The notes under the pieces were generated by a model, which saw only the letters and a program-made list of their open reading frames with translations, searched no databases and had not been told where the DNA came from. A stretch of 64,000 nt of DNA from Sipunculus nudus (taxonomy: Eukaryota; Annelida; Sipuncula; Golfingiida; Sipunculidae): contig CM049309.1 in the NCBI GenBank assembly GCA_026874595.1, forward strand, positions 56,161,926 through 56,225,925, given 5' to 3'. Below are positions 608 to 64,000 of the stretch, piece after piece. A program made the position numbers and the translations under genes. How positions within the stretch are numbered: the stretch's first letter is position 1; the number at the start of each line of letters is the position of its first letter.

Positions 608-2723
608 CAGTGTTGCTCCTAGGCATGAAAAGCAAAGGGACACCGGGCCCCTTTATGTAATTTCTGGGGGACACAACAAAATTAGGTGGGGACAATGTCT
701 TCGAAGCAAAATATCATCTTAAAATAATCTATGTAATATGAATGTAGTATGTTTTGGGCATTTGGAATGAATTATTAATATTTGTAAAGGTTGGAATCGT
801 TACATGTTTTACATGTAATCACTTATAAGTCGCATTAAAACTGAAGGCAATAGAATTCATGTCTCAAGATCAATAATAACGGTACATTGATGTACATATT
901 GCAAAGTGGTGACATACAATCATGTTCATTGCTAATTGAGGAATCGCGCAACAACTAGTGCCATTCAAAGTGGCAAATCAATATCCACACTTAATGTTGT
1001 GAACAACTCAATACGGACAAAGGATATACACATTTAGGCAGGGGTTTATTCACTGTCGATAAATTTGATAAGAATAGGTTATTCAGAATGTCGGCTGTGC
1101 TAGCGTAAGTTGCCGTGGTACGATGAGAATTTTGCTGCCCGCGTCACCATATTACATAATTGTTTGTATGAAAGTATGAAAGGAATAATCGTCGAAATTT
1201 CGGTTCCCACGACGTGTCATTTATGCGTTGGCGGTGCCGTGCAACGATGTTTGGCCTACATGTTAGCCGGGAAAGTTTGCTGCCAGCGCTACATTATTAG
1301 GCCTATAATCTAAAGCAAGTATCAAAAGACCAGACACCACAATTTCTTTTAAAAAATAAAACATTTGAACTATTTAAATTATAAACTGATTCTTTCTGTC
1401 CGTATATATTCGTGTTAGCCTATATGTATGTCGCCGTGGAAACGATGTCAGCTTAACCGTGAAAATATGCTGCCTGCGCGGCAGCAGCTAAAACTACTAG
1501 TTCAACAAGTAACAAACGATTAAATGTCCATATTATTGGTCAGAGAAAATGAAAAACAACCAACAACGAAATAGTTGGGTTCTTCTTAGTTATGGCATTT
1601 TCATATCAATTAAACTGCGATAGTGAAGTAATTCAGTCAGGAGAAACATTGCACTTTCGTCGAAGTATATTCCCGGGCTCAGGCTTCTTTATACATACCG
1701 GGGAACAGAGAGATCACTAGCTGCATTAAATACGGCTGTATCCAGGACCATCGCACAGCGTAGCGTAGTAAGAGAGGACGGGTGCTAGGGCTAAGAGATC
1801 ACGTGTCCATGAGGCTTGAAAATTACGAGGAAGTTCCCATTCAAATCACAGTCATATGCCTAGGATTCAAATTAAACGCTCAGTCCAGTATAGAAATATG
1901 CAAATATAGAAAAAAGAGCAGCCATAGATTGGCTTGTCTTCCATGAAACGGTGTCACGACAGGCATAGACCGGTAGTTTGAGATTGTGGGAGACCTAAAC
2001 TGAGTTGCTTTGAGCAAAATAATCGTCGGAGCAATCGTAATCACGTTATCTGAGGCATTATTATGTAATTTATATGATCAACCTGGTGTAATTGTTAACT
2101 GTATACGCTGTTGAGAACTGCTTGACATCATGAAATAAGAACATTTCGAAATGCCGGGGAGGCGCGTTTCCAACCTTACTTCGCGGATGATCTTTTAGGG
2201 GAAATGTCGTAAAGATTGATCATGTCGGCCGTGGGCGCACTTTCTAAACTTCATTTAATAAATAAATATATATTTTTTTCATATTAATTTTTAAATGATT
2301 AAAATGCATCTTTATGTGAGATTATGTAGGCTAAACAACATCCGGTCGAGCACTGGACGCTGGCTTGCCACTTTATTCTGACCACAAGAACATTGATCTC
2401 TTCCGTGTATGTGCAACCCCTTCTTGTGTTTGGACCAACCCTGAGCCGATGCATTCTTGACATCGATGGTGTTACCATTCAATCAGTGTCACAGTATGTG
2501 TATCATGTAATCCTGCATAGATGGTTTTATCAGAGATTCCTACCGGAGGATTCCCGCAAATCTTTCATATAACTACGTTCGTTTAAGGGTTGCATTATTT
2601 AAACTTTTAAGGGATGCATGTGAAAATATTGCGTCCACATGGGACACGCTTGCCTAGAAACAAAGGGACATGGCCAAAAATATTGCGGCATTGCTGCAAT
2701 GCCGCACTCTAGGAGCAACACTG
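608..2723. mobile_element. hAT-like DNA transposon, non-autonomous
   Basis: A perfect 15-bp terminal inverted repeat is visible: CAGTGTTGCTCCTAG at 608-622 and its complement at 2709-2723. The hexamer agtcta abuts both ends (602-607 and 2724-2729), consistent with a target-site duplication. CAGTG-type termini are typical of hAT transposons, although hAT usually makes 8-bp duplications. No transposase frame survives; the 67-codon frame at 1110-1313 has no recognisable motif. Several diverged copies of a 'gccgtgg..acgatg...tgctgcc' module lie at about 1111-1290 and 1431-1485. The right end is only 66 bp upstream of an EGF exon. Confidence 0.65.
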
Positions 2724-2789
2724 AGTCTATACATGTTTTGTTTCCTTGACTATCACATAAATTTTAAATAAACATGACTGATTTTGCAG

Positions 2790-3028
2790 GAGACCCCTGT
2801 GCTGGTAATCCATGTAGAAATGGAGGAGAGTGCAGGTCATATTCACGTTCTGAGAGGGTGTCGGTAGCGTTCTACATCTGTGTGTGTCCTCCTGGGTTTA
2901 ACGGGCCCCACTGTGATCTTACATCATCATGGTCCAAAAAGCCACGTGGTACAAGACGAAGCATTCCAGCCACTCAGCAAGTGTTACCTTTATCAACACA
3001 AGTCAGAAGATCTGTATCACTTACTGGT
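2790..3028 (+). CDS. exon 1 seen: EGF plus basic linker
   Basis: Acceptor ttttgcag, donor gtaagt at 3029. It enters in phase 1 and leaves in phase 0. It encodes one EGF ([14 protein letters not shown]...GFNGPHC) followed by a Ser/Arg/Lys-rich linker with [10 protein letters not shown]. The linker resembles a furin-type basic stretch, but cleavage is not shown. Phase-1 entry means at least one exon lies further upstream. Confidence 0.8.
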
Positions 3029-6000
3029 GTAAGTCACAGAACTAACTAACATATCAGAACTTTAACTAACATATCTTTTTTAAAGTTATAACCAAAGCTG
3101 TTATGTTGATAAGACTGATAATTAAGTATCATAGTTTGGCACATATGGCATTTAATTCAATGTACATATTGAATTTCAATGTTTTGTGAAATGTGAGTTA
3201 TGAGGTATGAGTTGGTTTCTTGGGAACTGATCTACTCAAAACTAGTTGCAAGTACACTAGGGCTAACATCAAAGTTTCTGTGTGTTTTAACAGTTTTGTG
3301 TTGTGATCAAAGCTTTCTTTCTTTCTTCCATAAATAACCCATGAATGCTAATATGGCTTCTTTACTGAAATATGTATGTTTGTCATCTTAGTCTCCTAAT
3401 TAGAAGAGTACTTTGACTACTTTCATCTGATATGACATGCAGATGTCCATTTATACATTTGGGTCAAAGTAATGCTAAAGTAGCATTTTAAATAATATCC
3501 AAAGTTTTCCCAGTCATTAATACACTATATCTTAGTTCATATTTTCTCATATAATTATAATACTGTTCATTATTTTTCTGATCATTTATATAAGTAATTT
3601 TAGACACTTTAAGCCTTTGAATATATAGTTTTCGGTCAGGGATCTTACATAAGAAGTACCTGGTTGTCTGCTCATTCCTTTCCCCACATATTTTAAAATG
3701 CTATCAGAACTTCCTCCTTTGGTAAAATAGTTATTGAGATCTTAACAGTAAACCCTCACTGAATAATATGAATACAATTATGTCAGACATAAATGTTATT
3801 TCAGACACCTTACAAAACCCAGGGGTCCCCAAACCCTCCACTTCTCCCTGACCCTGGATCCTGTCGACCAAACAACCCCTGTATGAATGGAATATGTACC
3901 CCAATCAGAGGGGGATTCCACTGCTCCTGTAGACCAGGTATGTTTATTTACATAAAGTGAAACAAAGGCAATAAGTATTATTAACTTTTGGTGATCTGCT
4001 TATTGCCACAATAATATGTGTGTGTAAATATTCAAGAAACAATGGACGTTTAATATATGAAAATAAGTATGCATGCAGCCTTTTGCCAGCTGTAACAACT
4101 TGGAATACATGTTGATAAATAATCAGAAAATGATCTGTATAACTTTTTACTTTAATAATACTGGTGTCTTTCATTTTAAAATATGAAAAGTGAAAAGTTC
4201 ATTTTCCATTATAATGATAGTAAATTTACAAATATATTAAGAAATTAATTGTAAATGCTTTTTACTTTTCAAAACATTAGTTGACATCTGAATTCATTGA
4301 GAACTGTGGATATGTATTTAAAGGTTATACCGGACTAAGATGTGAATTTGGGATTGACATGTGTGCATCAGAACCCTGTCTTAATGGAGGTACCTGTAAG
4401 GTAGGTTAATCATCCTCCTTAAAACATCATGTACTGGTATGTACAGACCTCAGGCAAATTTGGTAGTTGGAGTCTAGATATCTGATTGCCTTGTGAGAGA
4501 CTCAGATACAAAGAAAAGAATTAGAAATATAAGCAGTATTCTTTGATTTATCTTTTTGAATCTGTACTGAAATGTAAAATTGGCTGAAAATTTCACTTTA
4601 TATCTTCCATAAGATATTCCTCACATGACTGACTTCTCTTGAATAAGTGATTTCTTTATGATACATGGTCATTAAATAATTAACCTTCATCGGTACATGA
4701 TCACTAAAGAGTAGAGTAGCACATGGTCAGTAATCACATTGATTTTCTATAATTAAGTATTCTAGATGTGAATAACCTGTGAGAAATGATATGGGCTATG
4801 TGAAGTTGTTCCATGTATCTCATATCTGTACAGAAAGAAGCTGCGGGCTTTGCTTGTTTATGTGTCCCTGGCTACAGAGGCAGGCAGTGTGAGGAGGATG
4901 TAGATGAATGTGACATACAGCCCTGTCAGCATGGTGGCTTGTGCACCAACCTGCCAGGTGGTTACAGGTGTACCTGTCCTGCTGGATACACAGGTAAGGG
5001 TAATAGGGATACATGAATGTGAGAATGCTTCGAATGTTTGAGATGGTCACTTGTCATATAATGCTGGATATATATGATGGGGTAACATACTATGATACTG
5101 ACACCCATCTTCCATGTGGTTACAGGTAAACCTGCCCTGCCAGATGCACAGGGATGGTAATAGAGGTACACAAATATAATTATGATACCAATCTTAAACA
5201 CAAGTAGTGCTAAAATAGATACACAGATATAATAATGGTACTGGTACCAATCTCCCAGGTGGTTACAGGTAAACCTGCCTTGCATAATACTGCATTTGCA
5301 GGTATGCTGATTGGTAAGTCCACTATTGATGGAGGGAATAATTTATAAAATGTTTATACAACAGTTTAAAAACTGTTTTCAGATGGTAAACTGGATGCAA
5401 AGGTATAAGTAGATCACATGTCAATGTTACAGGTTTTCTTCCACTTTAGGCAGGAGATGATTAATATTTATATAAATTTTATGTCCCATGTGTGGCCTTA
5501 AAATTTTAATAATAGGCTCTTTTTCATATCGTAATCCATCAAGGTGTTCAGTGTGAGACCGACATTGATGACTGCTTGTCTGGACCTTGTGTCACACTTG
5601 ATGGGGGCAGCTGTGTGGATGGGGTCAACAGGTACACCTGCAGATGCCCTCCCAGCAGAGCAGGAGAAAGATGTGAGAGAGTACAGCTGTGTAAGAGAGG
5701 TCAGTATATTGACAATTCTCTGGATTGGCAGAACTCTTTCAGGAGTTTTATTCTGCAATATTCATAAGTATTAAATATTATAAGCTTCTTCCCCATAGCC
5801 ATTCAGTTTACCAAACTCACCTTAAAGGATGAGTGGGTGCATCATCCTTTAATTTCCATAGTTCAGACTACTCAGCTAGAGGCTATAATGAATATACTTT
5901 TATATTTCAATATTTTTTTTGCACAGTGACTGCTAAGGGAAGGAACAGGGTACAATCATTTAATTCAGATTTTGGACCAATTTTGGTAGCTGCTTCTCTA

Positions 6001-12000: not shown

Positions 12001-15000
12001 CATTTTTTTGTGGCTGTTGATGCAGAGTTAATTTCACCTGCTCTATTTTACCTTCCTTTACCTTTAGACAAGTTCATTGTTGAAATTAAAAATTAATGAT
12101 TGATCTTCATATAACTGTCTTAAAGCTTTTGTAATGTTTTATATATATATTAATGACCTGTGAAATAGTAAAGTAATTTGTAATAATATACTCATCTTTG
12201 AACTCAATAGGTGAGAACTGTGGGACAGAAGTGACCTCCTGCTCACCTAACCCCTGCAAGTATAATGGTGACTGTTATGAAGATTCGCTCGGAGTGTTCT
12301 GTGTGTGTGATTCCCAGTATGAAGGTCTGTTCTGTCAGTGGAAGCAGGGAGTGTGCAGCCCCAATCCCTGTCAGCATCAGGCTCAGTGCTGGCAGCTTCA
12401 TGGCCAGCCTGTCTGTGACTGTCCACGTGGATACCAGGTATATTTATATAAGATCTTTTTTATAACTGCATGAGTGTGTGCTCATAGTCATATTGACACA
12501 AATGTTAATGGAAATACAGCAAAGTGATTATGATGTTGAACATGTGAATGTCAGAACTAGCTGTATACTGTATTGAATTTTTAACAAATCAACCAGCTGT
12601 ATAATGTTTTTAGTTTTAACTAAGGTACATTTTAAGACCCAGTCAGACTTTAATTATGTGTTGGCTCTTTAATTGTGTCCTTGTGTTAGATCATGTCAGG
12701 ATGGTATATCATTTGTATAGTATTCTATATGTTCTATATATTATAGACAGCAGGAACACTTCACATTTGCAAAGTTTTGTTGTTGCCTTTTACCATTTCC
12801 CATTGTATCATTTTATTTTCTAGGATGTTAATCTACCTATAAGTCCTGGAGCAGTTAAGGTTATTTGACTGTTAATTTAATGCACAGGGAAAGCGCTGTG
12901 GTCAGAGGGTTCAAGGCTGCACCCCCAACCCCTGTAATGGAGGAAGCTGTGTGGAGGGATTTAAAGGCCAGTTTCAGTGTACCTGCCCTCCTGGTCTGAT
13001 TGGTGACAGGTGTACAGTGCAAGATCCATGTATAGGTAAAACCAGTTGCTTAGTTCAGGTAGCTGTATAGAAAAAAAATTTGTTTTATTTGTAAACATAA
13101 TTGTGAGCTGTTTCTGTATTAATGAGAATTTTCTCTGTTAAAGTTTATACGCCAGAGTAAGCCAACCGAAAATTTTTCCCTTATTGGGTCTATTATCGCC
13201 CATCCCGCCTTGTTCCCGTGTATCTAGGTCACACTTCCGCTTCCTGTAATCACATTTTTCTTCTGGCGTCAGCCATGATGGACGTGTGATCCCGCGCTGC
13301 GAGATTCTTCCACTGTTGAGTTTGTACGGTTGAGTTTGCCAACTGACTGTAAGTTGTGTTTCTTTTCCCTTGCCCGCCATGGAGAACCCCACTTACTGTG
13401 TCTCTTGTGGTTCTGTAATCCCGGGTTGGGATTCCCACCCCACTTGCTTCCATTACGCACCAACAATGACTCCTGCCGGGGTACGGCGGATCCTTGTTTT
13501 TATTGCCTAACCTGGACTTCAGACAAGTGGGCTTTGTTCCAGGCTGGGACTCATTCCCCTGTAGTTGGGGGTTCCCCCTCCACGCTTCCTTTGTCTGGCC
13601 CCGTGGTTGTCTCCGGGGGGGGGGGGGGGGGGGGAGCCTGCCCTGGGTGACCGCACCACGGCCATGTTGCGTTCCCCGTCCGTTCCCGCCGGTCCTGTTT
13701 CCTCACCAGTGGTTTCGACTGTAAAGTCGTTACTTTCTCATACTCGCAAACGGAAATCTTCCCCCGTTCCCGCGGCCTCCCGTTCAGACGGCCCGTCTGC
13801 TTATTCCATATTACATAAATTGTCTCGATTCTGCTCATCACTTATGTCGTATCTAGACGTTCCGTTTCGACCCGACTCCGTCTGCCCAGCGCCCTCACCG
13901 GTTCCCTCGGTGCTTTCTCCCCGGCCGTTCTCTTCGCCCCAGGCTCCTCGCCGGCTTCCTTCCTTAACCCCGGGGCCGGCCGGGGCCGTCCCGCTGGTTC
14001 GCCCGGACCTTCCTGGTGTGCAGGTAAGTGCGTCAGTCCCTCCTGCCTCCGTTTCCGTGCAGCCGGCCTCACCTCCGGTAACTCTGTCTGCCGCCGTTCC
14101 TGCCCGGCCAGCCGGCTCTTTATTTCTGTTACCGTCTGCTGTGCTGCCTGCGGCTCCGGTTCCTGGGTCTTCCCGGATGGTCCCTGCTGCTGCTCGGTCC
14201 TCGGCTACCTGTTTCCAGCCTCCGGTCGTTCTGGCTCAGCCGGTCTCTCTGGATCCCCCATCCTGGGGTTCTCCAGCGTCCCCGTCTTCTCCTTCTGCCG
14301 ATCCCGCCCTGGCACATGATCAGTGGTCGGAGATCGCGCTGCAACGCCAGGCTTGGCGTACGTGCAAGTCTGCGCTTCAGGACCTCGTGGCTACCTCCAC
14401 CCAGGAGGCTAACCCCAGTGGTCCGAAGTTCCGTAGGTTACAACCTCGGTCTTCCTCGGCGTCGGCGGCAGGATCATATTTGAATCCTGCCGCCCTTCAA
14501 TCACCCTCCTCAGGGGTTGAAAATTGTATCTTATTACGCCGCACGGCTTGCATTCAGTCCTTGAAGCACTTAAAGCCGGAGCTCACTCAGGCGGAGTTGA
14601 CCGAGCTTTATGCTCAACCTTTTACCGGAATTCGATCTGTTCGATTTTCCATCTCCCCCAGTTCTCGTTCCTACCGCGACAAGTCTACGTCACCCTCGCG
14701 ACCGCCTCCCGGAGATGCCGCCGTCCGGGTGGTCTCACCGGTTTCTCTTTGCCTTTCCGGCGCCTCATCTCCTCCGCCGTGTCCTTCTCTGCTTGTCCAG
14801 CGCGGATCAGACGACCCTCCTTCTCATCCTACCGTTTCATCCTGCGGCTCCTTGGTTTCCTCTGTGGCGCTCTCTTCTCTCTCGCCCCCCGCTTCTACTG
14901 CCGCTCCGCTTCATGCTTCCGTCGTTACCTCGAGCGCATCCCCCATTTCGGTTGTGCCCTCTCTGCGCATGCGTGCTCTCCTCGGACACCTCAAGGATCA

Positions 15001-18000
15001 GGGCATTTCAAGTCCGGCTGCTCTCCTTGCCTCGGCTCCCCGTCGCCGTGCTTCGGACCACATCTATGACTCCTGGTGGCGTCTCTTCCACGAGTGGGCG
15101 TCTTCACGCGGACTCTCCCCCTTAGATCCGTCGCTTGCGGTGGTTTTAGATTTTTTTGTGTACTCACTGCAGGATAAACATTTATCCTATCCCTCTCTGC
15201 TTGGCTAACGTGCTGCCCTGCTTTCTGTGCTCCGTCCGCTGGGTCACAATCGTGTCCTTCATCATCCGTTGGTGTCGGATTTTCTCAAAGGGGTTCATGC
15301 CCGTGCGTCTCGTCCTTGGTATGTTGCGCCTTCCTGGCGCCTGGACATCATCGTACGTCACCTCCGGTAACCCCCTTATGAACCGCTGCGTTCGGCCCAT
15401 CTTCTTCGTTTATCTCGGAAGACGGTTTTCCCCCTCGCTCTTGCCTCAGCCGGTCGCCGCTCTGAGCTTCATGCCCTCGTGGCTGATTGGAAATTCACGC
15501 AAATTGCGGCCAACGGTTCGTCGGCCACCCTCCATTTTCCTCCGGACTTTTATAGAAAGAACCAAAATTTTGATGATCCTCCATCTGCTTGGCACGTTCC
15601 GGCCCTCCCTAACGGTCAGTACCGCTATGGGGCTACCAATTGCCCGGTTCGTGCGTTACGCTATTATCTTAAAGCTACTCATTCTTTGCGGGGGGGGGGG
15701 GGGGGGGGGGGGGGGGGCGCAAGAAGTTATTAATTTCTACCAAAGTCACCACTTCCAATAAGGAGATTAGCCCTATCACCATCAGTGCGTGGCTCAAAGC
15801 TACTATCGTCGCCGCCTATGAATCTGCTTCTCCGTCCACCTTAGCACAACTTCACATCAAGGCTCATGACATTCGAGCTCTTTCTACTTCCTTGGCTCAT
15901 CTCTCAGGGATCTCACCGAATCAATTGGTCAAGAAGGGCTACTGGAAATCCCCATCAACTTTCACACGCTTTTATCTCAAAGATGTTCAGCTCCAGGCTT
16001 CGGGCCTTTACTCCCTGGGCCCTGTGATCGCGGCGGGTGAGATCCTCCAATTTTCCAGGCCATCTTCGTCCTCTACGTCTGTTCCACCGCCGACGTCGTC
16101 TACTGCGCCATCCCAGCACTGAGGTTCTCCTCGTTCCATCGTTACAGGTAGGTGCTCCCTCCCCAAGGGTTGTCTGTTCTTTTCTCATTAATACAGAAAC
16201 AGCTCACAATTATGTTTACGTAATAAAACCCCCCCATTCCCTCCCTGTGAATGGTGGTTTTGTTAGTAAACTGTTGTGAGCTTTTCTGTATTACAAACAT
16301 CGCTCCCTCCCAGTCCACTTCCTTCCCCCTTTGAGAAATGTGATTACAGGAAGCGGAAGTGTGACCTAGATACACGGGAACGAGGCGGGATGGGCGATAA
16401 TAGGCCCAATAAGGGAAAAATTTTCGGTTGGCTTACTCTGGCGTATAAACTTTAACAGAGAAAATTCTCATTAATACAGAAAAGCTCACAACAGTTAACT
16501 AACAAAACCACCATTCACAGGGAGGGAATGGGGGGGTTTTAAAAAAATTGGTAACTTTTAAAGTCCCTTCCGTCTCGTGTTATCATCACATCGGTTCATA
16601 GTTTTGACTTTTCTGCTGCAGTTAATTATTAACATTTCTGGTTCAACAATCTCAGATCTCACTGTTTCATACCAACATGAAAATGCAGAAATATATCCAG
16701 ATGTTTTTCTCAGAGTCCACTATTGGTTGAGTCCCAAAATTGATAGGAAATGTATGTATAACCACAATGTTTCCTTTAAAAGATGTATTTTTCATGTACT
16801 TAAATTTAAAGAAGTTTAATATATACCAATGCAGTTTCTTAAAAATTGTTATTGGTATACTTCATCACAACACTTGACCAGTGCTTTCAATAACCTCTAT
16901 GTGTGTGCCCTAATGTAAATGTTTATCTTACTTTATTACTGAATATTAATTGCTTTGTGTGTGTTTTAGTGTCTAGGCCATGTCAGAATGGAGGCACATG
17001 TGTGACATACAGAGATTCTTACATTTGTGCCTGCTCAGCATTGTATTCTGGCCGTCACTGTGAGGAGGTGCTGCCTCAGCCTAATGTGACTGATCCATGT
17101 AAAGCAGAGCTGTGTCAGAATGACGCCACCTGTCACAGCATTGGATCAGCTTACAGGTAAAACAGGTTGAGCAAAGTATTCACACCAATCAGAATTAGTC
17201 ATTTTGAATACAGTATTTGAAAGTAAATTATTGTATTTTTAAATTTGAAAAAGTACCATGTATTTGTAATTGCCATATAACACCAGTAATAAATGCCACA
17301 GGTAGTCCTTAGGTACCTTATATAGACCAAAGTATTGTTAGACTCTCATGATAGTGTCCATTTAATCAGTAACTGTTTTGTTTGATATGCTACTAGAGCA
17401 TACAAATTACATGTTTTCATAATTTTATCATTTTTTGGTTGGAAATATCTGTATTTATACCTGTAAGCTGATGGTATAAGATGGTAACCAATTATTTTCA
17501 TTCCGTGCCAGGTGTGAATGCCAAGCCACTTTCACTGGTCAGCACTGCGAGACTGGAATCAACAGCCCATGTAATGGTAAGACACAGATGTATAAGTGCA
17601 AATCATGTAAAATATTATGTCAAGTTTATTACAATAAAAATAGACTCATTGCATACCCACCATAATGATGATCTTTCATCATGTATTTGCTGATGGTAAA
17701 TGTTGTAGCAGGTTTTTTGCTGTTCATTATGCCACTGCTTGGGCAGTTCTGTAAGTGATATGTAGATTGCAGCAGCAGTCTTATTATAGGAATCAAGCAT
17801 TTATCTTACATTTGTTTATAAACTAAAAATAATTGATGAAGAATTAAGGAAATAGGAAAAGATTGATGCTCTCACCCTTTTGTTTTACTGAATTGTTCAT
17901 GATCAAAATAACCTAATGGCTTTTCCTGTAAATCAATTATTCCTTACTAGGTTAAAAACCAGATTGAAAGGTCTTTGCATTTGTAAAAAATACTGACAGT

Positions 18001-29610: not shown

Positions 29611-31139
29611 TTTATGCCCCCGCCACAAAGTGGCCGGGGCATATAGTTTTACCCATGTCCGTCATTCCAAAATCAAACAGTTGTACAGACTTTTTTTCGC
29701 AATGCCTGCAGATATTGGCCTGATTTTTGGTGTGTAGGCAGATATAGACCAGTTACAGATCAAGTTCGCGTTTCGTCCCGGTTGACCTACTTTTCACCAT
29801 TTTACGGCTCCTAAACTTAGAATATTTCATGAAAAATAGAAATTTCATGACAAATACACATGTACGGACTTTTTTTCGCAATGACTGCAGATATTGGCCT
29901 GATTTTTTTGTGTGTGGGCAGATAATGACCAGTTACAGATCGAGTTCGCGTTTCGTCTTGGTTGACCTACTTTTGAATGTTTTACGCCTCCTTAACTTAG
30001 AAAATTTCATGAAAAATAGAAATATTCATGACAAATACACATGTACGGACTTTTTTTCACAATGCCTGCAGATATTGGCCTGATTTTAGGTGTGTGGGCA
30101 GATATAGACCAGTTACAGTTCGAGTTTGCGTTTCGTCCTGGTTGACCTAATTTTGACTGTTTTACAGCTCCTGAACATAGAAAATTTCATGAAAAATATG
30201 AAATTTCATGACAAATACACATGTATTTTTTTTTTTGCAATGCCTGCAGATATTGGCCTGATTTCTGGTGTGTGGGCAGATATTGACCAGTTATAGATTG
30301 AGTTTGCGTTTCGTCCCAGTTGACCTACTTTTGACTGTTTTATGGCTCTTGAACATAAAAAATTTCATGTAAAATATAAATTTTCATGACAAATACACTT
30401 GTACAGACTTTTCTTCGCAATACCTGCAGATATTGGCCTGATTTTTGGTGTGTGGGCAGATAATGACCAGTTACAGATCGAGATCACGTTTTGTCCCAGT
30501 TGACCTACTTTTGACTGTTAGACGGTGCTCTTACATAGAAAATTTCATAAAAAAAGTGCACATGTATGGACTTTTTTTCGCAGTGCCTGCAGATACAGGC
30601 CTAATTTTTGGTGTGGAGGCAGATAATGATCAGTTACAGATCGAGTTCTTGTTTTGTCCCAGTTGACCTACTTTTGACCATTCGACTGCTCCTGAACATA
30701 GAAAGTTTCATGAAAAATAGAAATTTTCATAACAAATGCATATGTACTGACTTTTTTTCCGAGTCAATGCCTGCAGATACCCCCCTGATTTTTTATGTGT
30801 GGGCAGATAATGACAGTTACAGATGGATTTGGTGTTTTGTCCAGGTTAACCTACTTTTGATTGTTTTACGGCTCCTAAACATAGAAAATTTCATGAAAGA
30901 CAGAAATTTTTATGGAAAATGCACATGTATGGACTTTTTTCACAATGCCTGCATATACTGGCATGATTTTTGGTGTGTTGCTTGATAATGACCTGTTACA
31001 GATCGAGTTTGCATTTTGCCCTTGTTGACCTACTATTGACCATACGACACCTCCTGAACTTAAAAAAATTTTCAAAATTTTACAAATGTTTCTAATTTGC
31101 CCCAGGCGGGGGCATTCGTGTCGTTCCGACACATCTAGT
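29611..31139 (+). mobile_element. Helentron/HINE-like element with internal tandem array
   Basis: The 5' end has a hairpin (atgcccccgcc...ggccggggcat, 29614-29642). The 3' end has the complementary ggcgggggcat (31105-31115), then a hairpin (gtgtcg/cgacac) and CTAG at 31135-31138. Subterminal inverted repeats plus a 3' hairpin are known features of Helentron-associated elements. Between them are eight copies of a ~180-bp unit. No coding capacity. Bivalve 'pearl' elements have a comparable design (from memory of the literature). Confidence 0.7.
29691..31080. repeat. tandem array, ~180-bp unit x8
   Basis: Unit starts near 29691, 29871, 30051, 30230, 30410, 30572, 30752 and 30936, each beginning 'ctttttttcgcaatgcctgcag' or a variant. 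They continue with 'cagttacagatcgag', 'gttgacctacttttga' and 'aaatttcatgaaaaatag'. Copies differ by scattered substitutions, and the later ones are more diverged. Confidence 0.9.
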
Positions 31140-45566: not shown

Positions 45567-46807
45567 TTGTGGTTATGATAAATTTAAAGAGCCTCCCATG
45601 AGTGTGTTATACTCGTGACACAAATATAACCTAATGTTCTGCACTCGTGACACATGAAAGGTCCATGTGGACATCATATCTACCTGTCATAATGGTATGA
45701 AAGTTGTAAATAGAAAGAGTAATGCGTTGTCTAAAATGCCTGTTTTGTCCTACACAGGTAGTGTTTTTCCCAAGCACAATACTAATCTGGTTTGAAAATG
45801 ACGAAATAGCCATTCGAAACGGCGAAGTTTATGGTAAATGCCGATAATCCTGTTGTACACCAGGTTCTGGTTTTAGCATACAAGTTGCAAAGTCACAGCA
45901 ATCGGTCAGATACGAGGTTTTCTAGCCGAGTTAAATACTATTATAATAAGACACCTTTGATGGACATGTTTAATTCTCACTACAAGTCGAGAATGATCTT
46001 TTAAACTGTATAAATTTATTTTACATGGATTGTACTTCAGGTTTATACTTTTATTTAAATCATGTGAGTGCCTTGTCTCAGATGGTGGAGTTTAGTAGTC
46101 TGTAATATCTGAAAACTGTGAAACCTTGTGCTCTGTTCTCCATAAAGGTGAACATGTTGTATATTTACAATTATTTTCACCCCAAATAATGTTTTAAATT
46201 AAGGGAAACTATTTAGGAATAGGGAAAATTCATTGATGATGGACATAACTACCAGGGATGGGAGTAACAGTTGACAGTACAGGTACCTGGATGTAGGTAC
46301 AGTGGAACCTGTCTGAAGGAACACCTGTCCAGTGAGGCAACCTGTCTATTAAGACAATCCTTGAGTGAACAAAGCTTTCACATGGTTGGAACTGACCTGT
46401 GTAATAAGAACACTTGTGAAGTAAGACCACTTTTGGTTAGTCCATTATCTATTTATACTATAAAATGACAACAATAATGTCAGTTTCAAAGCTGTTATTA
46501 CAACTAGTGTCCGAATACCAGATGTGTTTATTGATAACAAGTGGATGCCCTATAGTAATCACAGTCAGTCTGTCTGTTGTCTGTCCATCCGTCCATCGAC
46601 ACAGATTTATTTCCAGATTACTCCAGGTTGGTTTGACACATGGATTTCAAACTTGCCCTTCATATAACCCACCACTAAAGCAAGAACCGATAAAAAAATT
46701 TTGGGTCATGAGGTCAAAGGTCAAGGTCACAGGACTCGCTTATTAAAAAAGATTATGGCTAGATTCATCCCAAACTTTCCATCTTGCACATTTAGCTGAC
46801 TTGTCAG

Positions 46808-48399
46808 TAGTGGTGGGCCGATCATCGAGTTTTATCGAAAGTCAATCATTTTGCTGCCACTTTCAACGCTCAATTACAAAAGGCAACTATCGATTACATC
46901 ATAATCATGATAATGTGTCTTTGTTCCAGATAACTTCTGTATGTAACTGAGTTTAACATGGTAGATGTGAGAACGGAGGACATAATAAACCTCTGTGAAC
47001 TGGCAGGGAGCTGCAGAATATGCGGGGAGTTTTGTAACGAGATGTACATCGCACAATATGGCCTTATGGGCTGTATGGCGTTAAAATGCACCATAAATTC
47101 TCTGGGTCTATGCAGCAAGTAGATGTCTTGGATTGTGTTTTAATTCTTGATTATTATAAATGATTAAAATGATACTTTTAAAAGCATATTTTACCAATAA
47201 TAGGGAAATTTAAAAAAAGGGAAATACTTCTTTTCTTGCGTTTGGTTAAGAAAGTACAGTTTCACAGATAACTGCAGGTTTCTTTATATTTGCCTGAACC
47301 GATTATTAATGTCTGACAGGGTTGGGTTTTAGGCTGCCCAAAACCTGTTTTCGGCAGGGCAGAGCCTAAAACCTGCCTTTAACTGCCTAAAATAGGTTAT
47401 AACCTGCCTTTAACTGCCTAAAACCTTACATACCTTCACCTATGACTTGCAGTTAACTATGTTTTATTGTTACACAGCTAAATGCATTAAAGAAATATCC
47501 TCAACAAATGTAAAGTGAGGAACACTTTATTCAAACTAAATATATTAAACCATGACACAAAAAAAAGCAAAAAATGAATACAACACTACTTCAGGTGTTC
47601 CATATGAACACATTTCCTGGACAGTTTTAGCTTGTATCCCAAAATCATGTTCTGACGTCTCCCACCTCCATTACTGCCAATTTATAAAAGAATTCTCATA
47701 CAGTAAGCTTATAACCAGATACTTTGATATGTAGCATTTTGATCACAATCAAGGGACCAGGGCTGGGGCCAGGTACTTGTACCTGTACCTGTACCTGCCG
47801 GTCATGAGTAGGAAGTACCTTGTACCTACACCTGGAACTAAAGTACCTGTACCTGGTTCAAGGTACTCCAGGTACATTTTCTTATTTTCAGTTTTTTTCT
47901 CTTTTAGTTTAAATTTGGTTACCTGTATTGTTAAATAATCAGCAGGCCATCAGTGTAATAAACTGCTCATGAATTGAATTGTTATCACACCTCCAGAATG
48001 GTCACATGTGTGAAATCAGCTGTAACCACTTATATGGCAAATCACTCGATTATACTGTACTTGGTGTCCTTAATGAACTTTAAGTACACAAATATCATGT
48101 TTGTGAACTATGATGTCATCCTGTCATCCAGAAGCCAAGCAAAGCCTTGTGACTGTGTCACCCAAGCCAGTTTGGTAGTTTTATAGATCTTTAAGTCAAA
48201 ATTTAAACAAATATAGGTTTTAGGCTCTTTTGATGCCTAAAACATGCCTAAACCCTGTTTTAGGCGGGGCAGTTTTAACCAGGTTATAACCTATGGTTAA
48301 AACCTTCATGCCTAAAACTTGCCAACCCTGAATTCTGTCATCAATCGGTTTGCTCAAACCGATGATCGATTATAGAAAAGGAACCAACGCCCACCACTG
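46808..48399. mobile_element. hAT-like transposon, 8-bp TSD
   Basis: Left end tagtggtgggc and right end gcccaccactg are inverted. Flanking octamers cttgtcag (46800-46807) and cttgccag (48400-48407) differ by one base, as expected for a hAT target-site duplication. Subterminal 'cgatcatcga' and 'gatgatcgatta' motifs point inward. There is no transposase. It contains a second insertion. Confidence 0.7.
47317..48330. mobile_element. nested hAT-like element (CAGGGTTGG ends)
   Basis: Left cagggttgggttttaggc and right gcctaaaacttgccaaccctg are imperfect inverted repeats. Multiple 'aacctgcc' / 'cctaaaa' motifs lie near both ends (47330-47435 and 48210-48325). A 'gtacctgtacctg' cluster (47770-47880) may be another fragment. 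The flanking octamers do not match, so the duplication has decayed or the ends are imprecise. Confidence 0.5.
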
Positions 48400-48779
48400 C
48401 TTGCCAGTATGGGGAGAGCATAAATAAATTTGGGGTCAAAGGTAAAGGTCACAGGAGCTAACTGTTCAAAAATTAGTTTCCAGATGTGGAAATGATTGTG
48501 GATGCACTCTAAATCAAACTTTTCATCCCAAACTTTCCAACCTGCATACGTGGCTAACTCGTAAATCTGTAGATTTTCAGGATACCTTGTCAGAGGCCAA
48601 GGTCACTTTTTAAAAGATTGTTACAATAATCTAAATGCCTCAAGTTCAAGGATAATAAGTTCTAAGTTTTTTAGTCACAAGGTCATTGGTTAAGGTCACA
48701 GGGCTGTAATTCTGAAAAATTTCTTTTAAAATATCCTTGTAGACAAATTCAGCGAGCGTCTAGACCCATGGGTCCCTAG

Positions 48780-51394
48780 TTTGTTTATGAAATGGACATA
48801 TTGTTTTGTGACTAGCTCAAGCAACAGATTGATGGTGTCCTTTTAAGAACTACTGCCGTATTCTGGTTTGTTTTTCCTGACCAGTGCTGATAATTTAGCG
48901 TGCCAGTACACAAATAGGGCAAAGCAGATCCTGTAGAATTAACATTCCTTATGTCTCCCCTCCCTAGTGTTTGGTCTGTTGTCATCCTCTGTTGTCGCCT
49001 GTGTCATTTCTTGTGAACACGACTCCTCATTTTTCATGAAACTTGAAATTTAATTTGGTTCTGCCAATATCTCGGATGAGTTTGAAAATTGGTTACCTTG
49101 ACCTGGATTTTCCAGGTCAGTTCAGCTGGAATAGAACTTATTTGTGATCACTGTAACTTTTGAACCAATCAGTATATTTTCTTGAAATTTGAAATTTACA
49201 TTGTTTCTGACTTAACCAATATCTCGGATGAGTTAAAAAAAGCAAGAACCAACATGCTTGCTTTTACTGCAAAACATGGTAATATCTCCCATACAATAAG
49301 TGTTTCAACCCATGGTGACACGTTGATCGTCCTTGAAGATTCTCAAGGAACCAACAATCATTTTCTGACTTATGTATGGCCCACCACTAAAGTAAGAACC
49401 CTATAGGTTCTAGGGTCATGAGGTCAAAGGTCAAGGTCACTGGACTCATATCTTTAAAGATATTGTGGATGCATTTTAAGCCAAACTTTTCAGCCCAGGT
49501 CTTCAATCTTGAACATATAGCTCACTTTCCAATAGTGGATGATCCTTATTAATTTTTGGGTCACAAGGTCAAAGGCCAAGGCCACAGGAGCTATCTGTCA
49601 AAAAATTAAGTTTCTGGATGATAATTCCAGTTTTTTTTTATGTATGGATTTCAAACTTGCCTTATATGTGTCCCATTAAAAAAGCAAGATCCAATTTGAT
49701 TTTGAGGTCAAGGTCACAGGACACACATCTTTAAAAAGATTGTTGATGCATTTTCAGCCGAACTTTTCATCTCAAGCCTTTTATCTTGCACATATAGTTC
49801 ACAAGCCAATAGAGGAAGACCACTGTCCATTTTGAGGGCAAAAGGTCTAAGGTGAAGGTCACAGGAGCCTTTTGTCCAAAAATTAGGTTCTGGGATGATA
49901 ATTTCAGCTTGGACTGATATATGGATTTCAAACTTGACCTATATATGGCCCATCAGTAAAGCAAGACCTCTATTGATTTTGAGGACATCAGGTCAAAGGT
50001 CAAGGTCCCAGGACACACATATTTGAAAAGATTGTTGATGCATTTTCAGCCAACCTTTTATCTTGCACAATAGGTCACCGACCAATAGAGAAAGCCCCCT
50101 ATCCATTTTTAGGTCACAAGGTCAAAGGTGAAGGTCACAGGGGCCACCTTGCAACCTGTCAAAAATTCATTTCATGTTGATAATACCAGCTTGGACTGAT
50201 ATATGGGTATCAAACTGTGGCCCATCAATAAACCAAGATTACTATTGATTTTGTGGTCAAAGGTCAAGGTCACAGGAGAAACATCTTTGAAAAGATTGTG
50301 GATGCATTTTCAGCCAAACTTTTCATCTCAAACCTTTTTTCTTGCACATATAGTTCACCTGCCAATAGAGGAAGACCCCTATCAATTTTTAGGTCACAAG
50401 GTCAAAGGTGAAGGTCACAGGAGCCACCTGTCCAAAAATTCATTTCCTGTTGATAACTCCAGCTTGGACAGATATATGGGTTTCAAACTTGACTTATATA
50501 TGTACATCTGTCTTGGAAAGTTTTTTCATCAACCATTTTGGTGGTGCCACCTACCTTCCTGTTCTGTAGAATAAATTAATACCCTTTTCTGAGAAGTGAT
50601 TTGCCCTATTGCCCTAAAAATGTGCATATCCATAGATGTTGGGCTTCTACATTTTGTACTCAAGACTGGAGGCGCCATCTGCAATCGTTTTAGCGTGGCG
50701 TCCACCTGTACGTGTGCTTTGGGTAAAAATTGGCTCATATCTCCGGATTTGTTCAAGGTTTTGGTCTGAAATTTGGCATGTCCATCCAACTGGGAAAGTT
50801 TTCACGTAAACCACACAGGTGGTGCCACCTACCTAACTGTTTCTGAAAATTAAATTAATGCTCTTTTCTCAAGAGAGATTCAACATATTGGCCTCCATAT
50901 TTGGTGAAAAATATTGTTTCTCAAGTTGATAGATGGAAGAAACAATAGTCGCTTGCTAAGTGTCAGTATATGCTGATGAAGATGGTTTTCTACTTTGATA
51001 TAAATTAGATCAAATATCTCAGTAATGATTGCATAGATCTTTCTGATCATGGACAGCCCTTTCACCTGTGGAACGAAGACCAGTGGAGCCATCTACATTT
51101 TCCTTTTTTATGCATTTTCAGACTTCGAAATTAGGGTGGACATGTCACAGTCAATGCTGAAGCCCAGCAAACAAATTCTTTACAGTAAAACCACTGATTG
51201 AAAGAACATGTATCATTATGTACCTTCACATATGTATTTGTCACAATAGAAAATTTGAAGAAAATCCATATATAGGATAATTTTTCACAACTGCCACAGA
51301 CACAAATGCAAAAATAATCAAATGACAGCATTCTAAGTTGTTAGAATTTTTAGTGTCAGAGATTAGCTGAGCATCATGATCCCTGAGTCACTTG
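48780..51394 (+). repeat. Helentron-like repeat region with ~300-bp tandem array
   Basis: From about 49340 to 50560 there are roughly four to five copies of a ~300-bp unit: 'atatatgg.tttcaaactt', 'aggtcaaaggtcaaggtcac', 'agattgt.gatgcattttcagcc', 'cttgcacatatagttcac' and 'ggtcacaaggtcaaaggtgaagg'. Degenerate GGTGGCGCCACC sites follow at 50541, 50666 and 50820. The 3' terminus is gctgagcatcatgatccctgagtcaCTTG at 51367-51394. The 123-codon frame at 50203 is a repeat translation. Confidence 0.75.
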
Positions 51395-59010: not shown

Positions 59011-60906
59011 TTTTAGCTCTGCTGACTGTAAGTCATCTGAGCTATAGATGTGGTCCATTATCCATTGTTCGTCCATCTGTCTGTCTGTCCGTCTGTAGAT
59101 GTGGCACGTTTGAAACGGTAAGACCTAGGAATCCAAAATTTGGCATAATGTTAGATGTCCCCAAGATCTCCTACCAAGCCGAAAACTGGGTTTTTGTGAC
59201 TGCGTTCCTTTGAGAAATTAAGGAAAAACCTCAATTTTTTATTAAAAACCTATTTTCACACTTCAGGACTACCTAATATCAAAACCACTAACCTGTTTTT
59301 CCTCATATTTACCATAAATATTCCTCTATATAGTTCCTATGTACATGCCAGAAATTAAGTCTGTATTATATAATTTTATAAAGTTATGGGCCCAAACATA
59401 ATGCATTTTGTAAATAATCAGGAAAGATATTTAATCACTTAACACAAAACATGTTACAGCTAAGGACTTTTTTCCCAGAAATATAACTTTAATAAATCAA
59501 AATTAAATTGTATACCCAAAATTAGATCAAAATCTTTTAAATTTTTTAAAATATTAGCAAAAATAAAAAATTGGTACCTTAAATTTTGCCCAACTTTGAC
59601 CACGGCATGTTTTTATCTTGTAAGTACATTTGATTTAATTTTCACAGCCAGTTTACATATGGATTTAATCTGATAATTTTTGAAATTTGGAAGTATAAGC
59701 TTAAAAAATAGTCTAGCTATTGAAGTTTTTTAGAGGCTCAATGTATTTGTATTTTCTAGCATCATGACCCCACTTTTGTTTACTACAACTTTGCCTGGTA
59801 ATCCAAAAATTTGCATAATGTTTAGTTAGATTTCCCTAAGATCTCCTTCCAAGCCAAAAACTGGGTCTCTGCGACCTTTTTCCTTTGAGAAATTAAGGAA
59901 AACCTCAATTTTTTTTATTAAAATCATTTTTACACTTCAGGAATGCCTAATATCAAAACCACTCACTTATTTTTTTCATATTTTCAAAAAAAATAATTGT
60001 CTATATATAACCTGTGAACATAACCTATAACCTGTAATAGGTCAGTACTATATGATTTAAAAAAGTTAAAAGTTAAAAAAATTTGTAAACTGTTGAACTG
60101 TCAACAGCTTATCAAAAAAGTAACCAATTGAAACACATGGTCAGATCTCAAAATTTTATTTGCAACAATATCTTCAGTCATATCAACCAACCATGGCCTA
60201 GGTTACCTCTTGCTCTCAGACTTTATCTACATTTCACCTTCCAGGTGTTTAAGTACTGTTGAATGCTCCAGCCCCCTCTCTTTCCTCTCTTTTTCTCTCT
60301 ACATCCACCCCTCCTTGCTGCCCTCACTATTCTCTTCTCCAAAGTCCATCCCAATGTCAGCCTCAGTAAACAAGAACAAGATGAATCAGATATATTCATA
60401 TTTTCATATTTTGTATAACTATTAATCCATATTTACCTATGTACATGCCAGAAATTATGTCAATATTGTGTAATATGTAGAAGTGGTGGGCATCAAAATA
60501 ATGTACCTTGTCAAGACCGAACAGATATCATGTCATACAGTCACAAATTCATAAATCCCCTCATCAGCATAGTTAATCATAACATTATATCTGTCAAATT
60601 GAAATCTTGCAGACTTCCGTACACTATAGATCCTTCAACAAATAGCCTTATCATCATTCTACCACTGCTTAGTATACTGTCATTGTATTCATATTTTCTC
60701 AAATATATTGCTGTTTTCAACCCCTCCCAAATCAATGAAATATAAATCATTCACTCACGTATTACATTATATTCCTTTATTATATTATAATAGCCCACCA
60801 TGTCCATGATATTCATAAGCTTTATCAACTCAATATAGTATCACAATGATGATACATTTATACTCAAATCATGATCAGCTGTGCGCCATGACCATTGGGT
60901 CCCTTG
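59011..60906 (+). mobile_element. Helentron-like element, apparently complete
   Basis: 5' hairpin agctctgctgact/agtcatctgagct (59015-59044), then 'gtccatctgtctgtctgtccgtc'. The interior has two related blocks (59119-59460 and 59800-60535) marked by 'atctcct.ccaagcc.aaaactggg' and 'cttcagga.t.cctaatatcaaaaccact'. The 3' end is cagctgtgcgccatg, hairpin gaccattgggtc, cCTTG. No protein coding capacity. Confidence 0.7.
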
Positions 60907-63547: not shown

Positions 63548-64000
63548 TTTTAGCTCAGCTGACTATAAGTCATCTGAGCTATAGTCGTGGTCCATTGTCC
63601 GTCGTCCATCCGTCTGTCGTGCCAGCTGTCCGTCTGTCCGTCCGGATGTCCGTCTGTAAGACTGCCACGTTTCGACACCATTGGACCTACGAATCTGAAA
63701 TTCAGCATACAGTTAGATGTCCCCAAAATCTCCTACCATGCCGAAAATTGGGTCAATAGAACTTCGTTCCTTCGAGATATTAAGGAAAAACCTCAATTTT
63801 TTATTAGAAATCTATTTTCACACTTCAGGAATGCCTAATATCAAAACCACTCATCTAGTTTTCTTCATATTTACCATAAATATTCCTCTATATAGTTCCT
63901 ATGTACATGCCAGAAATTAAGTCAGTATTATTTAATTTAAAAAAGTTATGGGCCCAAACATAATGGACTTTGTAAAAAAATTAGGAAAGATATTTGGTCA
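63548..64000 (+). mobile_element. Helentron-like element, truncated by window end
   Basis: 5' hairpin agctcagctgact/agtcatctgagct (63551-63579), then 'gtccgtcgtccatccgtctgtc'. From 63716 it parallels 59158-59460 closely to the end of the window. Confidence 0.75.

Follow-up and report, generated by a model that had tools for sequence, protein, structure and literature searches.

A 64,000-nt stretch of the Sipunculus nudus genome, referred to here as the window, carries on its + strand at 13082–16538 a 3,457-bp element with the ends of a DIRS1-like retrotransposon, a gag-like region and a region resembling a tyrosine recombinase (YR). It is almost certainly a dead, doubly deleted copy of a common DIRS1-like family, having lost its reverse transcriptase (RT) and RNase H by two internal deletions. 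The element is an ordinary one of an already known kind and not a new recombinase-only lineage, and we file it as a defective copy rather than as an autonomous element. A preliminary description, made from the sequence of the window alone, had left open whether this was an internally deleted DIRS derivative that spread with its own recombinase or a distinct lineage carrying only the recombinase. The genome-wide comparison of copies that it proposed removes the novelty, returning the outcome it had named as decisive against it: a one-off deletion in an otherwise standard DIRS element whose full-length form occurs in the same genome.

Full-length relatives and two private junctions

We searched the 1.43-Gb genome that contains the window with the whole element as query. 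Among the matches listed (from 40 scored out of 1258 first-look candidates), only the element itself matched over its whole length, the rest matching in pieces. The interruptions fall at two points, around 14510 and 14626, and 19 of the 20 copies fetched have extra sequence at both. Between the blocks that adjoin at 14509/14515, 19 of 20 copies hold 377–491 bp; between those at 14625/14628, 17 of 19 hold 764–1,772 bp, except for one of them, L096, with 4,984 bp. In the other two of these 19, L097 and L099, the first stretch is present (only partly in L099) and the second begins as elsewhere but is then cut by a larger deletion of their own. L103 matches the window only to the right of 14625, yet compared with L094 it retains some of the second stretch. 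The window copy and the others share about 83–92% DNA identity across the large blocks of gag and recombinase.

In L094, a 5.69-kb relative that served as our reference, the second stretch encodes RVT_1 (E = 1.1e-23) and RT_RNaseH (E = 4.5e-06) within a 628-residue frame, whose best relatives in the PDB are RT/RNase H chains, that of Ty3 among them; the three copies checked for the RT motif YLDDW (L094, L100 and L107) all show it in their second stretch. The combination of RT and RNase H expected of a DIRS1-like element is thus found in L094 and not in the window copy. In the four and then eight + strand pieces of the window element given to Pfam, RT, RNase H and recombinase all went without a match, in line with the absence of RT in the preliminary description. 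No gag match rose above the cut-off in the window pieces or in L094, nor did any of four open reading frames (ORFs) of L094 match a methyltransferase in Pfam. Copies of about 5.55–5.69 kb with no deletion of at least 200 bp relative to L094 include L095, L100, L105–L110 and L113. With these full-length copies, the RT and RNase H of L094 and the sequence present at both points in 19 of 20 loci, the idea of a distinct recombinase-only lineage falls.

The junction of each deletion, on the + strand, was located by copy mapping. At the first (14509–14515), L094 positions 1427–1904 are missing and 5 nt of other sequence stand at the join, a net absence of 471 bp. At the second (14625–14628), L094 positions 2017–3790 are missing with a 4-bp overlap, a net absence of 1,776 bp that includes RT and RNase H, and CCGG lies on both sides as a microhomology. 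A 114-bp stretch (14515–14628) is retained between them. In a genome search allowing up to 3 mismatches, each junction sequence had one exact site and one further match, at 3 mismatches; the loci fetched for these near matches share 22 bp and nothing with the element, so neither is another copy of it. In this assembly, no second locus carries the 3.46-kb form. Of the first alternative in the preliminary description, the deleted derivative therefore stands; its spread is without support, given that the junctions are single-copy and no other listed match is of whole length.

Internal deletions are frequent in the family as a whole. Terminus-like sites number 930 in the genome (451 forward, 479 reverse; 5 and 2 for the control), and among the first 100 of these sites we found by eye 30 facing pairs 1.7–7.4 kb apart, of which 20 were fetched for a survey, one was L097 and nine were left out. 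Together with the window copy and 19 of the first 20 copies fetched (L094 being the reference), the 20 fetched for the survey made up 40 copies. The sample is not random, being weighted towards copies that match well or that have both end motifs; the 20 facing-pair copies, 73–93% identical to L094, were chosen by both end motifs, which leaves truncated copies under-represented. An internal deletion of at least 200 bp occurs in 21 of the 40, the window copy included, where deletion means absence relative to L094 and an insertion in L094 would look identical. The RVT_1 stretch is wholly or almost wholly missing (a few tens of remaining base pairs being tolerated) in 8 of the 40, again counting the window copy. 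No pair of breakpoints, both within 15 bp, is common to two copies.

Some copies have peculiarities of their own. L097 (3.7 kb) and L099 (3.6 kb) lack 1,965 and 1,964 bp, with breakpoints about 60 bp apart. L096 and L127 are far longer than 5.7 kb and contain about 3 kb of other sequence (about 3.2 kb in L096), probably nested insertions, and L126 carries the RT portion (reference positions 2578–3162) three times in tandem.

Element ends and host position

The ends of the element are those of a DIRS1-like retrotransposon, with inverted terminal repeats and an internal complementary region that matches both extremes and whose halves overlap at a 3-bp circular junction. The preliminary description had placed the element at 13091–16540, within 10 bp of the ends that we draw from the end alignments, the ends of other copies and the self-only whole-length match; redrawn at 13082–16538, the element has GTT at both ends. 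The inverted terminal repeats of roughly 155 bp that it reported are borne out, as 13111–13260 and 16333–16482 are 98% identical over 150 nt, and a gapped alignment extends them to 13082–13260 (left terminus, + strand, beginning with GTT) and 16333–16508 (right repeat, − strand), with 169 of 179 columns identical. To the right of this repeat lies a 30-bp right extension (16509–16538, + strand; term from PMC3266345), which pairs only with the internal complementary region and ends in GTT.

That internal region, also described previously, complements both extreme ends almost perfectly. Its left half (16182–16229, − strand) matches the left extreme in 46 of 48 columns, with one substitution and one gap, and its right half (16224–16293, − strand) matches the right extreme (16472–16541) in 69 of 70. 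The scores of the three end alignments (302, 84 and 135 for the inverted repeats, left and right matches) stand far above those of 500 shuffles, the highest of which were 32, 27 and 29. Where the two halves meet, the region reads AAC (16227–16229, + strand), the complement of the terminal GTT and, by the definition in PMC3266345, the putative circular junction. Counted by eye, GTT forms the left end in 37 of 39 printed sequences, the window included, and the right end in 26 of 38, followed by GAT in 11 and GTG in 1; these counts exclude copies in which the end search pattern was not found. Many family copies also have variable runs of C or G, both within the internal complementary region and at the right end. 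DIRS1-like elements are expected to end in an NTT-type trinucleotide and to lack a target-site duplication; no duplication was seen by eye in the flanks of the element at this locus, which were not tested systematically.

In end dimensions, the nearest DIRS1-like element is LgDIRS2 of Lottia gigantea (PMC3266345), a comparison of table dimensions only, without sequence alignment. Like the published DIRS1-like design, the window element has one right extension and a 3-bp circular junction. Its conserved repeat is about 150 bp against 141 bp in LgDIRS2, and the internal complementary halves are about 48 and 67–70 bp against 46 and 67 bp; the right extension is shorter (30 against 46 bp) and the terminal trinucleotide is GTT instead of AAT, GTT being found in fish and hemichordate elements of the same table. 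The 5.55–5.69-kb relatives, with gag-like, RT–RNase H and YR content, can be set beside mollusc elements of 4.7–5.8 kb, whereas the window copy is shorter than all 28 elements tabulated (3,793–6,283 bp; PMC3266345). L094 also departs in giving no methyltransferase match in Pfam; this domain is usual but not universal in DIRS1-like elements and is seen in 38 of the Xenopus families (PMC9210276).

The surroundings of the element belong to a host gene. EGF domains are encoded on the + strand on either side of it, at 12876–13067 and 16894–17157, and five EGF-like pattern matches lie between about 9.5 and 23.9 kb of the window, one of them in the left flank of the element. Because EGF-encoding stretches lie on both sides, the element probably sits in an intron of a + strand gene, in the sense direction. 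Scans of the window with Rfam and for tRNAs were empty. Elsewhere in it, a 180-bp unit forms an array of about 7.6 repeats at 29682–31040, repeats sharing a recurrent GGTCAAGGTCACAGG-like core, a 277-bp tandem unit among them, occupy 46662–50537, and a dispersed direct repeat of 300 nt at 87% identity occurs at 59109–59408 and 63671–63970.

Degraded frames and the identity of the putative recombinase

Two coding regions remain, both on the + strand and both degraded. The first (13379–14509), which we call gag-like from its position, has a Cys-rich start and broken frames; the second (14960–16119, start approximate), delimited by its frames, its motifs and a profile of the ORFs of other copies, reads like a tyrosine recombinase in which two in-frame stops interrupt the frame and a run of G shifts it. 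The preliminary description had listed a gag-like frame and a recombinase with its motifs: the long frame exists and the motifs are visible, but both regions are decayed and the recombinase match is weak. The frame at 13637–15205 is stop-free over 523 codons, a length reached in none of 500 single-base shuffles (maximum 457); open from 13565, it continues out of the gag-like region and reaches the beginning of the recombinase.

Runs of G mark both regions. In the window copy they measure 20 nt in the gag-like region (13615–13634, + strand) and 28 nt in the recombinase region (15690–15717, + strand); G runs stand at the first site in many other copies and vary in length at the second. Across many copies (the window and L094–L133), long G runs of 10–31 nt occupy these shared sites. 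At the recombinase site, the lengths measured in 28 copies fall into all three frame classes (12, 9 and 7 copies), implying that many copies are frameshifted there.

The identity of the recombinase is drawn from a weak profile match together with motifs and position. Visible in the window frame are ASAGRRSEL, which we take to be a Box I-like motif, and HDIR...W...Y, presumably the remaining signature residues. Searches of Pfam, NCBIfam and, with phmmer, the PDB did not recognise the window recombinase; Pfam did not match the unbroken recombinase frame of L094 either, and searches of PHROGs, phages and viral contigs were of no help in recognising the recombinase. Against a hidden Markov model of bacterial YRs, built from 44 sequences without internal stops (of 46 supplied from 80 loci) and six named recombinases, the window sequence reached 2.1 bits, whereas the best of 2000 shuffles reached 5.3 bits. 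When 11 natural ORFs of other copies were aligned, their profile scored 33.5 against bacterial recombinases in hhalign, above the maximum of 26.3 in 200 column shuffles, which would be consistent with a tyrosine recombinase.

Origin of the short form

In the published model of DIRS1-like replication, each end pairs with its half of the internal complementary region, the resulting molecule is closed across the 3-bp junction, and it integrates at a genomic triplet of the same sequence, which is not duplicated (PMC3266345). Applied to this family, the longer relatives (5.55–5.69 kb), in which DIRS-type ends enclose the gag-like, RT/RNase H and recombinase-like frames, presumably multiply by way of reverse transcription; the internal complementary region would restore the ends, the circle would be joined at GTT, and the recombinase would insert it at a genomic GTT, leaving no target duplication. 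From the window copy, two internal deletions unrelated to splicing have removed about 0.47 kb close to where gag ends and about 1.78 kb with RT and RNase H. They arose either through template switching while the element was being reverse transcribed or through end joining once it had inserted. The near-identical ends and internal template would fit a last cycle not long ago. The window copy cannot move itself, because RT and RNase H are gone and the recombinase is interrupted.

Other origins place the short form differently, and three of them we consider to have next to no chance. A distinct recombinase-only lineage with DIRS ends, lying between DIRS and Crypton, would explain why the window copy has gag-like and recombinase-like frames and no RT, but it is hard to square with the DNA identity to other copies in those very blocks, with the RT of L094, and with deletions that vary and are unshared among copies; we rejected it on the single-copy junctions and the RT-bearing relatives. 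Descent from a spliced element RNA, with the missing stretches as introns, would leave just such clean gaps around a retained 114-bp stretch as introns leave around an exon. This vanishingly improbable route is contradicted by the boundary sequences, since GT–AG is absent from both junctions, also when the second is slid by eye within its CCGG overlap, and the open frame for RT lies within the second stretch. A Crypton-type DNA transposon shares with the window copy alone the combination of a recombinase-like frame and no RT. In PMC3212892, however, Cryptons are described as having 4–6-bp terminal direct repeats and no terminal inverted repeats, and animal Crypton YRs as matching DUF3504, with DIRS YRs not doing so. 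The long inverted repeats and internal complementary region found here, together with the RT of L094, set the element apart from Cryptons, and DUF3504 was not among its Pfam matches up to E = 10, the presence of that model in the library being unconfirmed; on these grounds a Crypton is scarcely credible, and we rejected it. PAT and Ngaro elements are likewise tyrosine-recombinase retrotransposons, but PAT and Xenopus Ngaro-like elements have split direct repeats where the window element has inverted repeats and an internal complementary region; the direct repeats listed for it form, by eye, no split direct repeat, and both were rejected on end structure.

A more serious candidate, although we still consider it doubtful, is a mobilised non-autonomous derivative, in which the deletions came first and the 3.46-kb form was then inserted with the RT of its relatives and possibly its own, then intact, recombinase. 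The almost perfect match of both ends to their internal templates and the existence of RT-less copies with other breakpoints (8 of the 40 surveyed, the window copy included) speak for it, as does the preservation of frame across both deletions. Against it stand the two junctions, each single-copy in the genome, and a breakpoint pair shared by no two surveyed copies; besides, one insertion cannot separate a deletion that preceded it from one that followed. Narrower still is the proposal that the doubly deleted, frame-preserved gag–YR form was itself a mobile parasite of full-length relatives, packaged and reverse transcribed in trans, inserted by its own recombinase and one of several independent RT-less forms continually generated by this family, which we think improbable.

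Several of our own results weigh against the reading of the element as a dead, doubly deleted copy. Since its ends and internal templates differ at so few columns, the insertion appears fairly young, and the ends do not give the order of deletions and insertion. Both deletions, at 471 and 1,776 bp, are multiples of three relative to L094, and the frame stays open; this would happen by chance about once in nine times and could hint, as the only such sign, that the short form was once expressed, although the multiple of three depends on the choice of L094 as reference and the size of the first deletion varies between copies. On the recombinase, the hhalign match of the 11 ORFs carries a probability of only 33% and, in the alignment as printed, does not bring the HxxR box into register; a Box I pattern appears in only 2 of the 11, some of the ORFs being too short to contain it.

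Defective DIRS copies have parallels in other genomes. Xenopus DIRS families have degenerate repeats or ORFs in 36 of 75 and 13 of 20 cases, so that defective members with interrupted ORFs, as here, are normal; that report covers the degeneration of family sequences, and not the gag-plus-YR configuration of the window copy (PMC9210276). With its many copies bearing both ends and its varied internal deletions, the S. nudus family could help to decide whether such deletions come about while the element is reverse transcribed or once it has inserted. For the classification of tyrosine-recombinase elements nothing changes: what looked like a missing link from DIRS to Crypton is a single deleted copy.

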